Assembly: GCA_023667845.1 (NCBI GenBank)
Contig: JAMPIU010000095.1
Coordinates: 62,001-126,000 of the forward strand
Source of the DNA: Dehalobacter sp.
GTDB lineage: Bacteria > Bacillota > Desulfitobacteriia > Desulfitobacteriales > Syntrophobotulaceae
Direction: 5' to 3'
DNA length: 64,000 bases
Shown here: positions 58,569-62,641 of the stretch, one piece after another
Layout of the letters: every line of letters starts with the position of its first letter
Position numbering within the stretch: the first letter of the stretch is position 1
The notes under the pieces: model-generated
Seen by the model: only the letters and a program-made list of their open reading frames with translations
Database searches by the model: none
Told to the model about the DNA's origin: nothing
Made by a program: the position numbers and the translations under genes

Positions 58569-59003
58569 TTGAAGCTGAAAGATAAGACGTACAATAAGTT
58601 CTTGGAGTTTTTTGAGAAGGTGTCCAAGAAACATGAAGAAGATCAGTTTGAGATTGCCTATTCCGAAATACAACGTGAGACAGGCGTGGCAAGTATTACC
58701 CTGAAAAAAGCGCTGAAGGTGCTGGAAGACGACAAGATTATTGAAATCAATCAGGGCAGAAATACCCGATATGGCAAGATCAGGTATCTAAATAAATTGA
58801 ATGCCAATTCAAAAGATCCCGCTAATAGAACAAGAACGCTTGCTTTAGTGGATGATGGAACGGTGAATCCAGGGACACTGCATCAAATCAAGAATATGTC
58901 CAGTCTCGTCGAACAGCTGCGGCAGAGGGTACGTACCCAGGAGATGACGATTTCTGTGATTTTGGACAGACTTGCTGATTTGGAAGATAGAGTGCATCGC
59001 TAA
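58569..59003 (+). CDS. winged-helix DNA-binding protein with C-terminal coiled coil
   Basis: A 144-residue protein from TTG 58569 behind GGAAGGATG. Residues 20-75 form a winged helix resembling GntR/MarR-like folds (YSEIQRETGVASITLKKALKVLEDDKIIEINQGRNTRYG). The end (SSLVEQLRQRVRTQEMTISVILDRLADLEDRV) is a coiled coil, probably for oligomerisation. There is no ligand domain. Such proteins act as small regulators in clostridia. The target is unknown; the adjacent LtaS-like gene is a candidate. Confidence 0.7.
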   Translation: MKLKDKTYNKFLEFFEKVSKKHEEDQFEIAYSEIQRETGVASITLKKALKVLEDDKIIEINQGRNTRYGKIRYLNKLNANSKDPANRTRTLALVDDGTVNPGTLHQIKNMSSLVEQLRQRVRTQEMTISVILDRLADLEDRVHR

Positions 59004-59052
59004 AACATAATTGGTTTTCCAGTTGTTTCTAGAGGATTTTTCTTCACCCCGG

Positions 59053-59270
59053 TGTTATAATAGCTATGATGCTGCTCTGTTTGTATGGACTATCATGGTT
59101 TTGATCCTATTTTTTTCTCGGGAACTGAGTAGTGGCAGGTCGTGTACATCATGCTTTGCAAAAAGAAGATGGAAAGATCTGTCTAGGTACCCACCTGCAT
59201 GTGCAGGGTCAGAAAACCAGATGTCTAACGGCAAAGCGGGAAGAGGATGTCCAACGGACATCCTCTTTAA
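59053..59270 (+). promoter_or_regulatory. leader RNA with terminator ahead of LtaS-like gene
   Basis: TGT-TATAAT (59053-59061) is an extended -10 box. A strong hairpin, AAGAGGATGTCC with GGACATCCTCTT (59241-59252 with 59256-59267), then TTTAAAATTT, ends about 20 bases before the LtaS-like start. A roughly 200-nt transcript could be either a regulated leader (attenuator/riboswitch) or a free small RNA. Possible pairings include GCAGGT (about 59136) with ACCTGC. No known riboswitch class is recognised. Confidence 0.5.
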
Positions 59271-59287
59271 AATTTATGAGGAATTCT

Positions 59288-61372
59288 ATGGAGGAGAAAG
59301 TGTCTAATTCTAAATTTCTGGCTATAATTCCGTTAATGGTTTTAATATTGTTTGAGACGGTCTCACGCGGAAGTTTCGTCCATACACTGGTCTGGGTAGT
59401 ATGCCAACCGAATCAATTTATTGCCACGTATGCTATTCTGTTTGGACTGATTAATGCTTTTTATCTTTTGCCCCGGCGTTTGTACCTGTCCATTGCAGTA
59501 GTCATTCTAACCGGCCTTTCCTTTATTGCGCTGGTCAGCAGGGAAAAACTACTCCTAAGAGGAGAGCCTTTGCTGCCCTGGGATTTAAACCTTGGGAAGG
59601 AAGCCGCGAATATTTCCCAGAGCTTTCAGGATCTGCCGATCGCTTTTATGTTGGGACTCGTGATTTTGCTCATCGCTGCGATCATCCTGATCATTCGTTA
59701 CATACCAAGAGAAGAGTACCTTTCGGCTCAAAAAGTCCCCATTGCGGTACTGTCTTTTCTCTTGCTGTTTAATCTGGTTGCCCATACTTCTATGCAAAAG
59801 ACCTTCAACTGCCGGCTTGTAAACTGGAGCCAGCAGTCCAATTACGAAGAAAATGGCTTGATTATAGGCTTTATGATGAATTATAAAGCCTATTCGGATA
59901 ATGCTCCGGCTTCTTACCAAAAAGAAGAAATTGAAAAGATCATTGCTCAGACCAAAACTGATTACACGGTTGATCCGGATTTTACCCCAAATGTCATCTT
60001 TGTGCAAAGTGAGGCTTTCTGGGATCCGACGCTGATGAAAGAAGTAAGCTTCAGTGAAGATCCAATTCCGTATTTTCATTATCTGCAAAAAAATTATTCA
60101 GGCGGAAAGATAGTTGTTCCTGTCTTTGCCGGAGGAACGGTGAATACAGAGTTTGAAGTTCTAACAGGGTATTCCTGCCAGTTTCTCCCGGCAGGGATCA
60201 TTCCGTATGTCCAGTACGCAACCAGGGATATGGATGCTCTGCCCGCAATTTACAAAAAGCAGGGCTATGAGGCTACGGCAATTCATACTTACCATAACTG
60301 GTTTTACCGCCGCAATATTGTTTTCGAAGAGATGGGATTTGACAAATTTATCAGCAAGGAATTTTTTACAGATCCGGAGAAGAAAGGAACTTATATCCGT
60401 GATACGGAGCTTACGAAGAAGATTCTGCAGCAGCTTGGACAGAATGATAAACCCGATTTTATCTATGCGATTTCTATGGAGGCTCATGGACCTTATGCGG
60501 AAAAACCTAATGCCGGAAATACGATTCAGGTTCAGGGCGACTTTTCAGCTAAAAATAAAATACTTCTGGAGAATTACGTCAATACGATTTCTGACGTCGA
60601 TCAGTCCCTGAAAGCATTGATTGAAGGTCTAAATAAGATTGATGAACCAACGATCGTTGTTTTTTATGGAGACCATTTGCCTTTGCTCGGCAATAGTTCC
60701 GAAGTGTATAAAGAAGCTGACTTTTTTCAGGATGGAGGAAGTTACAGCGATTATTTAAACAAATATACGGTGCCATTTGTTATCTGGGACAATTTTTCTA
60801 CCCAGAAAGATAAAAATATTTGCATTTCTTCCAGCTTTTTGGGGCCATATATTCTGGAAAAAAGCAAAAAAGAAGGAAATACGCTGATGGATTTCCTCTA
60901 TTCCTTATATGAAAAAGGGTCGGACGTGATGGCCGCCGCGCAATATCAGAAGAATGAAAAAATCACCGAAGCAGAATCCGCGGACTATGAAATGCTGCAA
61001 TATGATTCCCTGATTGGCAATGCGTATGTCTATGAGCTTAAACCACAGGATAAACCTGTTCAGAATGCTTTGTACCTGCTTGGAGAACGTTTTCCCAAGA
61101 TCGAAAAGGTCCTTCGTCTGAGTGGAAATGTGATTCAGGTTCAAGGGGAAAACTTCCTGCCGGATTATCAGATTTATATTGATGATACCCTGGTTAAAAC
61201 GAAGTACGTAAGTAATACTGTCTTAACAGCCGTCTTGCCGAAATCAATCCAGAATGAGACTGAGCCTGTCAGCCTTCTTTTAAAGATGATCGACAGCCTC
61301 AATAATGTTATTTCGGAATCAAATACGTATTCATTCTCGTGTACGGATGGCGCCTCCATCGATGATAAATAA
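59288..61372 (+). CDS. LTA synthase-family sulfatase-fold membrane protein
   Basis: A 694-residue protein. ATG 59288 follows TGAGGA; the frame extending upstream runs through the leader terminator and is not coding. Five N-terminal membrane helices (to about residue 155) precede an extracellular sulfatase/phosphoglycerol-transferase domain: NVIFVQSEAFWDPTLM, the nucleophile threonine in FAGGTVNTEFEVLTG, HTYHNWFYRR, VVFYGDHLPLLG. The last 90 residues look like an Ig/IPT-type beta domain. By family it transfers glycerol-phosphate or similar to cell-wall polymers. The final codon abuts a truncated repeat B. Confidence 0.85.
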   Translation: MEEKVSNSKFLAIIPLMVLILFETVSRGSFVHTLVWVVCQPNQFIATYAILFGLINAFYLLPRRLYLSIAVVILTGLSFIALVSREKLLLRGEPLLPWDLNLGKEAANISQSFQDLPIAFMLGLVILLIAAIILIIRYIPREEYLSAQKVPIAVLSFLLLFNLVAHTSMQKTFNCRLVNWSQQSNYEENGLIIGFMMNYKAYSDNAPASYQKEEIEKIIAQTKTDYTVDPDFTPNVIFVQSEAFWDPTLMKEVSFSEDPIPYFHYLQKNYSGGKIVVPVFAGGTVNTEFEVLTGYSCQFLPAGIIPYVQYATRDMDALPAIYKKQGYEATAIHTYHNWFYRRNIVFEEMGFDKFISKEFFTDPEKKGTYIRDTELTKKILQQLGQNDKPDFIYAISMEAHGPYAEKPNAGNTIQVQGDFSAKNKILLENYVNTISDVDQSLKALIEGLNKIDEPTIVVFYGDHLPLLGNSSEVYKEADFFQDGGSYSDYLNKYTVPFVIWDNFSTQKDKNICISSSFLGPYILEKSKKEGNTLMDFLYSLYEKGSDVMAAAQYQKNEKITEAESADYEMLQYDSLIGNAYVYELKPQDKPVQNALYLLGERFPKIEKVLRLSGNVIQVQGENFLPDYQIYIDDTLVKTKYVSNTVLTAVLPKSIQNETEPVSLLLKMIDSLNNVISESNTYSFSCTDGASIDDK

Positions 61373-61422: not shown

Positions 61423-62457
61423 TTATGGTGTACTATTGGCCCATTCTTCATCAAACAGCGCTGCAACTTTTTTGGCGACAGCAGGGGAAGGGATAGTCAA
61501 AGAACCTTCGTGATTAATAACAAAAGAAGGATATGTCCAGGCAGAATTGGAAACAAACAGCGTTGTCTGATCAAAAATACCGAAATTCGCACCCATCGCT
61601 TTTTTGTCAGGATGATTGTAATAGCGCAATTCGATCTGGGCGTCCTTTAATTCCTGAATAGCATCGGGCGAGGTAATTGCACTGGAAAGGCTGACGATCA
61701 CTTTCACGTTACAGCCTCTTTTTTTTGCCTCCAACAGGGCATCGATTATATCGTCTTTACTCAGTTGTTCGGTTTCTATTAAGACCTCAGACGCAGCAGC
61801 GTTGATTAAATTAAGAAGCTGCTGTTTAACATTGACAGCAATGGCAAAGGTAATATTGTCTTCTGGTAATTTGGAAGTATCCGGTAAATCAAGCGACAGT
61901 GTTGTCGTATAGTTCCAGTCTTTGCCGAAGGATTTGTCCATGACACCGACAGAGTCTCCGGATAGTTTTACAGCCATGCTGTGCGCATCGAAGCCTTTGG
62001 CGGTCCAGTCCTTTCCGTAAAAAACAGCCGTTTTGTGATCAACAACCATATAGCGTACTGTCTGGTACTGTCCTTTCTCAGCAGGATAGTACTGGACCGA
62101 TATGTTTTCATTTTTTAGTGCTTTGATGGTTGAGGTATTATCTCTCTGCCATTGATCGAGCAGCAGTCTTACTTCGATGCCCGAATGCGCTTTTGTAATC
62201 AGTAAATTAATGATTTCCTGATCATTCAGACTGGACAGCTCGATATAAATGGATTGTTTGGCCTGATTGATTACATTCAAAGTTAGCGGACGGATAGCGG
62301 CTCCGTCTAGGTAAAGCGCACCAGCTGGCAAGTTTGATACTGGATTGGACTCATCATCAGCGGAAAACGAGAATATTTTGCTGCATCCGGACATCGTTGG
62401 GACAGATATCACGATGATCATCAGGATGATCAGGAAGGGTACTTTTGCTTTGGACAA
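61423..62457 (-). CDS. phospholipase D-like lipoprotein with degenerate active sites
   Basis: A 344-residue predicted lipoprotein. TTG 62457 follows AGAGG and opens a signal peptide with lipobox around VPTMSGC (cysteine about residue 25). Two PLD-like halves are seen (IYIELSSLNDQEIINLL, VLIETEQLSKDDIIDAL). The catalytic HxKx4D motif is altered in both: half one has DHKTAVFYGKD and half two has MGANFGIFD with no histidine or lysine. It is likely a non-catalytic or changed-function member exposed outside the membrane. Confidence 0.75.
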   Translation of the reverse strand: MSKAKVPFLIILMIIVISVPTMSGCSKIFSFSADDESNPVSNLPAGALYLDGAAIRPLTLNVINQAKQSIYIELSSLNDQEIINLLITKAHSGIEVRLLLDQWQRDNTSTIKALKNENISVQYYPAEKGQYQTVRYMVVDHKTAVFYGKDWTAKGFDAHSMAVKLSGDSVGVMDKSFGKDWNYTTTLSLDLPDTSKLPEDNITFAIAVNVKQQLLNLINAAASEVLIETEQLSKDDIIDALLEAKKRGCNVKVIVSLSSAITSPDAIQELKDAQIELRYYNHPDKKAMGANFGIFDQTTLFVSNSAWTYPSFVINHEGSLTIPSPAVAKKVAALFDEEWANSTP

Positions 62458-62641
62458 AATATCAGCCTCTTTACCAATAAATTGAGCTTTGGCAACTCTT
62501 CTCTTATTATACATATTTTTAGAGATAAATAACGAAAAAAATAGTTCCAATTGGAAAAATATCTGATTGAAAGGCTATTTGATGAGCGGTTCTCCAGCCA
62601 AATAAAAGGTAAATCATGGAAAGAGGAAGAATAACTATCCA

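Follow-up and report, generated by a model that had tools for sequence, protein, structure and literature searches.

A leader of about 200 nt in front of an LtaS-like gene of Dehalobacter sp. raises the question whether it is a regulatory element of that gene or an RNA gene in its own right. It lies within a window of 64,000 nt (positions 62,001 to 126,000 of contig JAMPIU010000095.1), to which all coordinates refer unless otherwise stated. A first-pass annotation, made from the letters alone, had described some 180 structured bases between an extended -10 box and a 12-bp terminator hairpin ending 20 bases before the start codon, had read the arrangement as an attenuation leader, and had offered a free small RNA as an alternative. 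The three building blocks proved to be real. The box TGTTATAAT is present at 59053-59061, the region 59066-59275 folds to -74.9 kcal/mol compared to -53.9 ± 3.9 kcal/mol for shuffled sequences (z -5.4, 0 of 200 as good), and the hairpin ends at 59267, with an ATG following at 59288. It was the alternative that turned out to be right: with a probability of roughly 97%, the sequence data identify the region as an ordinary 6S RNA gene (ssrS) with its own promoter and intrinsic terminator. 6S RNA is a small RNA, widespread among bacteria, that binds RNA polymerase and holds it in check.

The covariance-model search suggested by the first-pass annotation was run over the window with 4227 Rfam families and yielded two matches, one tRNA and RF00013 (6S/SsrS RNA). 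The latter covers 59066-59246 on the plus strand, scores 62.6 bits where the gathering score is 46.4 (E value over the window 5.3e-10) and spans the full model (1-187 of 187). Between 58900 and 59400, RF00013 was the sole Rfam family at E up to 1. The match starts 4 nt past the -10 box and stops within the 5' arm of the terminator hairpin, and thus promoter, RNA and terminator make up a complete small-RNA gene. The assignment to 6S RNA draws on covariance-model membership, covariation within the fold, conservation of promoter box and hairpin, and the order of the neighbouring genes. A riboswitch or T-box was rejected, as no such family reached its gathering threshold in the window or, within 58900-59400, an E value of 1 or below, in line with the earlier remark that none of the known riboswitch cores is recognizable. 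In the open literature, we found no paper joining 6S RNA with Dehalobacter or with lipoteichoic acid synthase.

We then asked how the RNA is distributed among 25 genomes of the family. RF00013 was found above cut-off in 24 of them, with 26 matches in total, the exception being G019, which is 67% complete. The genome harboring the window (3.65 Mb, 209 contigs, 99.95% complete) has one copy, and a search with RF00013 at E values of up to 10 revealed no second 6S. Two core patterns, CCCACC-N5-9-GCRGGGTCA and GTTTTGATCC-NA-N10-GGG, each have a single match in this genome, both inside the same 6S, although a strongly diverged copy could escape this search, which used RF00013 and the core patterns but no subtype-B model. 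Across the 25 genomes, each pattern matched at a 6S in 24; the first gave one non-6S match (G015) and one match when reversed (G009), and the second missed one of the two G002 6S copies and gave no match when reversed.

Sorted by reading, the 26 loci fall into 20 of subtype A, the type of the window, and six of subtype B (L011, L012, L014, L017, L024 and L025). Subtype A has a closing stem that is mostly CTGCT/AGCGG and a compact terminator hairpin abutting it, whereas subtype B carries CCTACC or CCCACC near its start and, where seen by eye, a longer and looser hairpin. The co-occurrence of both subtypes in G002 and G011, compared to only one in 22 of 24 genomes, points to an old duplication followed by differential loss. 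G021, in which a subtype-B 6S alone was detected, has what look like the terminal bases of a subtype-A 6S (ACGGCAAAGCGGGAA) and its terminator behind the helix-turn-helix (HTH) gene (L067:1405-1485, minus strand) with the rest missing, apparently a 6S gene lost through internal deletion.

For the analysis of covariation, 19 of the 20 subtype-A loci were aligned, including that of the window; L010, nearly identical to L008, was omitted. RNAalifold derived 52 pairs from these sequences, with 94.5% of cells paired compared to 88.2% after shuffling. Double-sided changes were seen at 21 pairs, as against a shuffled mean of 12.5, and 0 of 500 shuffles reached 21; because the fold was derived from the tested alignment, the comparison favours it somewhat, but the margin is nonetheless large. 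The covariation score of 0.276 dropped to 0.047-0.077 when partners were slid by 1-3 columns. A less decisive measure, the number of further pair types, gave 53 versus 47.1 for shuffled alignments, a value reached by 12 of 500 shuffles. In keeping with 6S RNA, the covarying fold is a conserved rod built of a closing stem, a central bubble and an internal stem. Mapping the 49 Rfam pairs on the window RNA left six non-standard, three of them at the very base, and the core segments GGUUUUGAUCCUA and CCCACC...GGGUCAG are nearly invariant across loci.

By homology, the RNA, a rod of about 181 nt with a central bubble, would mimic an open promoter. It should bind the housekeeping RNA polymerase holoenzyme, as described for 6S RNAs in the excerpts available of PMC8414754 and PMC8876501, and lower transcription in starving or slow cells; accumulation in stationary phase would be expected as well. 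The polymerase would then copy a short product RNA (pRNA) off the central bubble, releasing the 6S RNA (same excerpts). For the window 6S, we infer expression, polymerase binding and a pRNA start at about U59110. The predicted template, read leftwards from U59110, occupies 59097-59110 (+) and would give 5'-AUAGGAUCAAAACC, with a start uncertain by about one base. The predicted 14-mer is identical in 16 of the 20 subtype-A loci and differs in L007, L008, L010 and L026. It carries GG at positions 4/5 and AA at 9/10. The pRNA hallmarks given in an excerpt of PMC8414754 are AA at 9/10 and GG at 5/6 in lactic acid bacteria or 4/5 in Gram-negatives, and the placement of GG at 4/5 here therefore suggests that the assigned start may be one base off.

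On the 3' side of the central bubble, a hairpin CCUGC-AUGU-GCAGG is predicted at 59194-59207 (+), within the conserved CCCACC..GCRGGGTCA core. When the window RNA was folded with the pRNA footprint held unpaired, this 3'-bubble hairpin formed; a hairpin in the 3' bubble has been described for B. subtilis 6S-1 (PMC8876501, in excerpt). The central bubble collapse helix of the B. subtilis type was hardly predicted in the blocked window RNA (0.31 expected pairs), and we rejected it as a conserved feature, at least 4 expected pairs being reached in only 10 of the 26 loci.

The promoter is of the TGN-type. TGN directly precedes the -10 hexamer 5' of all 26 family 6S loci, the hexamer being TATAAT in 25 and TATACT in L018. 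Taken alone, the extended -10 pattern proves little, as it occurs six times in the window compared to 1.98 expected occurrences, and 3 of 100 shuffles reach six. There is no good -35 at the 6S promoter, which is why a simple two-hexamer promoter scan of the window missed it. At the level of sequence, the conservation of the promoter box in 26/26 loci, together with the hairpin in 20/20 subtype-A loci, argues for an independent gene. Upstream of the box, we noted by eye a candidate conserved element (TTTTCCA...GTTTCT...AGGAT; 59015-59037, +). It lies at equal distance to the -10 box in g1, g4, g5 and g11; g7 has part of it, g3 has it farther upstream, and in g6 or g8 it was not seen by eye. Its consensus, approximately TTTCCAnnnGTTTCTnnARGAAT, stands at a fixed distance from the -10 at many subtype-A 6S promoters; besides the window, it was noted in L004, L005, L007, L015, L018, L019, L021 and L023.

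At the other end, the terminator (59241-59275, +) consists of a 12-bp hairpin with arms 59241-59252 and 59256-59267 and a weak U-tract, UAAAAUUU, with TTTAAAAT following the last G-C pair. The U-tract is short, which accounts for the hairpin being absent from a simple terminator scan of the window. A hairpin stands at this place in all 20 subtype-A loci, with sequences varying among genera, and in the minimum free energy fold it adjoins the closing stem without competing with it. Read by eye, the longest T-run 3' of the hairpin is 3 in all five loci of the genus and at least 5 in 14 of the 15 others, the exception being L005, which also has a run of 3; we kept to reading by eye here, as a rule that ends the stem at its closing G-C pair still enters the U-tract in g8 and g11 (7 loci). 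In L007, one of the genus loci, 6 of the 8 positions behind the hairpin are T.

The neighbourhood of the 6S gene is conserved as well. Upstream lies a gene for a 144-residue winged-helix protein (58569-59003, +), GntR-like but below the Pfam cutoff (21.1 bits against 27) and matched by no NCBIfam model; the protein has a match in 20 of the 25 family genomes, two of them partial. Counting neighbours within at most 1.5 kb per side, with the contig ends of L003 and L020 too close for a full view, we found the small HTH gene directly 5' of 6S in 15/20 subtype-A loci and panB nearby in 15/20. The first-pass annotation had pointed to a regulator gene just upstream: as a neighbour it is indeed conserved, but any regulation of the RNA by it would be conjecture. 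An HTH protein acting on 6S via the upstream element was considered and found unsupported, as three g11 genomes keep the element without a match to the protein (E up to 1e-4). Behind four of five HTH genes that do not adjoin a 6S (L067, L071, L074 and L076), no 6S was found, the only hits being two matches far below gathering to other families.

On the 3' side, 6S is followed by the LtaS-like gene in 5/20 subtype-A loci, and these five genomes are precisely those of the window's genus. In 11 of the 15 other loci, the downstream gene is a PLD-family gene encoded on the opposite strand, at a distance of over 1 kb in L009. In the window, this usual convergent neighbour is found right behind the LtaS-like gene (61423-62550, opposite strand), suggesting that the LtaS-like gene was inserted between the two. 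Ancestrally, the genes most likely ran panB, HTH, 6S and reversed PLD, with the LtaS-like gene probably a late arrival.

The LtaS-like gene (59300-61372, +) encodes an LTA-synthase-superfamily protein in which Pfam detects a sulfatase domain (180.6 bits) as well as a TIG domain. The gene starts at ATG 59288 or GTG 59300, 20 or 32 nt past the hairpin end. The GTG is preceded by GGAGG at 59290-59294, and because the relative L007 shares this GGAGG-GTG arrangement, GTG 59300 is probably the better start. Among relatives of solved structure, the phosphoglycerol transferase GacH ranks first, followed by LTA primase and LTA synthases, and the NCBIfam LtaS model scores 57.5 bits against a cutoff of 970; 'LtaS-like' fits the protein, 'LtaS' would be too strong. 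A second, more distant relative is encoded in the same genome outside the window (C95:156964-158475). In G004, the LtaS-like gene (L022:1735-3179, in reading direction) is interrupted near residue 207-219, where it breaks into two overlapping frames, owing to a frameshift or a sequencing error.

These findings bear on what else the region might be. Judged by its layout of promoter, structure, hairpin and start codon, it could be an attenuator or riboswitch that acts in cis and serves the LtaS-like gene alone, as first proposed. We consider this very improbable: the RNA is 6S by covariance model, and it is conserved in genera with no LtaS-like gene behind it, such a gene being absent from 15/20 subtype-A loci within the sequence stretch examined. 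Conversely, none of the LtaS-like genes of other genera (E up to 1e-20) has a 6S match in front; they reside on other contigs than 6S or far off, the nearest at about 13 kb in G010, an outcome close to the lack of conservation upstream of orthologs that had been named beforehand as speaking against a leader. Five loci of about 10 kb each with LtaS relatives from Paenibacillus, Cytobacillus and Neobacillus likewise yielded no Rfam match that reached the gathering threshold. The notion of an RNA that travels with the LtaS-like gene was dropped, the two being adjacent in 5/20 subtype-A loci. Even more remote is the idea of a degenerate, non-functional 6S copy. Some relatives did lose one subtype, and L067 seems to keep only the 6S 3' end and terminator, but in the window's nearly complete genome this is the sole copy found, and each of the five genus genomes has promoter box, core and stems intact.

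Adding to the 6S identity rather than competing with it, the 6S gene could double as promoter and leader, with read-through of the weak terminator yielding the LtaS-like mRNA. We give this slightly less than an even chance. The scant room for a promoter, with no plus-strand promoter listed by the scan between hairpin and gene, and the short T-runs in the genus both suggest read-through transcription. Moreover, the tight spacing is kept in L007, even though its LtaS-like protein is only 56-59% identical, and there is a precedent in Coxiella, where ssrS lies within the ygfA 5' UTR, a linkage termed highly conserved among gamma-proteobacteria (PMC4064990, in excerpt). However, the silence of the promoter scan is weak evidence, given that it overlooked the 6S promoter too; the T-run contrast comes down to one or two evolutionary events, as four of the five loci in the genus are near-copies; L005 shares the short run outside the genus; and L007 retains considerable T-content behind its hairpin. 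In addition, TAAAAT at 59268-59273, -10-like but lacking a -35, might act as a separate promoter, although the box is not conserved in L007. The LtaS-like gene may thus live on read-through of the 6S terminator. A fuller scenario, which we regard as speculative and rather unlikely, is that a glycerophosphotransferase-like gene of the LTA synthase kind moved behind the 6S terminator, which then lost part of its U-tract, so that envelope expression would be driven by read-through from the 6S promoter and track 6S production. The locus offers a simple test of whether protein genes can be expressed by 6S read-through outside proteobacteria.

In sum, the locus deserves annotation as ssrS, which removes one false riboswitch candidate and makes the supposed leader a standard global regulator RNA. 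The analysis also supplies, for the lineage of the window, the 6S promoter and ends, the likely product RNA and the neighbouring genes. Compared to known systems, as far as the excerpted accounts describe them, the RNA resembles B. subtilis 6S-1 (bsrA) and the Firmicutes members of RF00013 in its rod with central bubble, the GG/AA hallmarks of the predicted pRNA template and the 3'-bubble hairpin. Whereas B. subtilis has two 6S copies (PMC8414754, in excerpt), one was found in the genome of the window. The window RNA further departs from 6S-1 in that its terminator hairpin abuts the closing stem and in that the collapse helix is hardly predicted. The placement of a 6S gene directly before a protein gene, with possible read-through, is reminiscent of ssrS-ygfA in gamma-proteobacteria (PMC4064990, in excerpt). 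Here, in contrast, the gene that follows codes for an LtaS-like transferase, and 6S ends in a hairpin of the intrinsic type. Rho-dependent termination has reportedly been described for E. coli by Chae et al. in 2011. With terminator attenuators and riboswitches, finally, the locus shares the order of promoter, structured RNA, terminator and start codon, but its RNA matched no riboswitch family and is conserved independently of the downstream gene.
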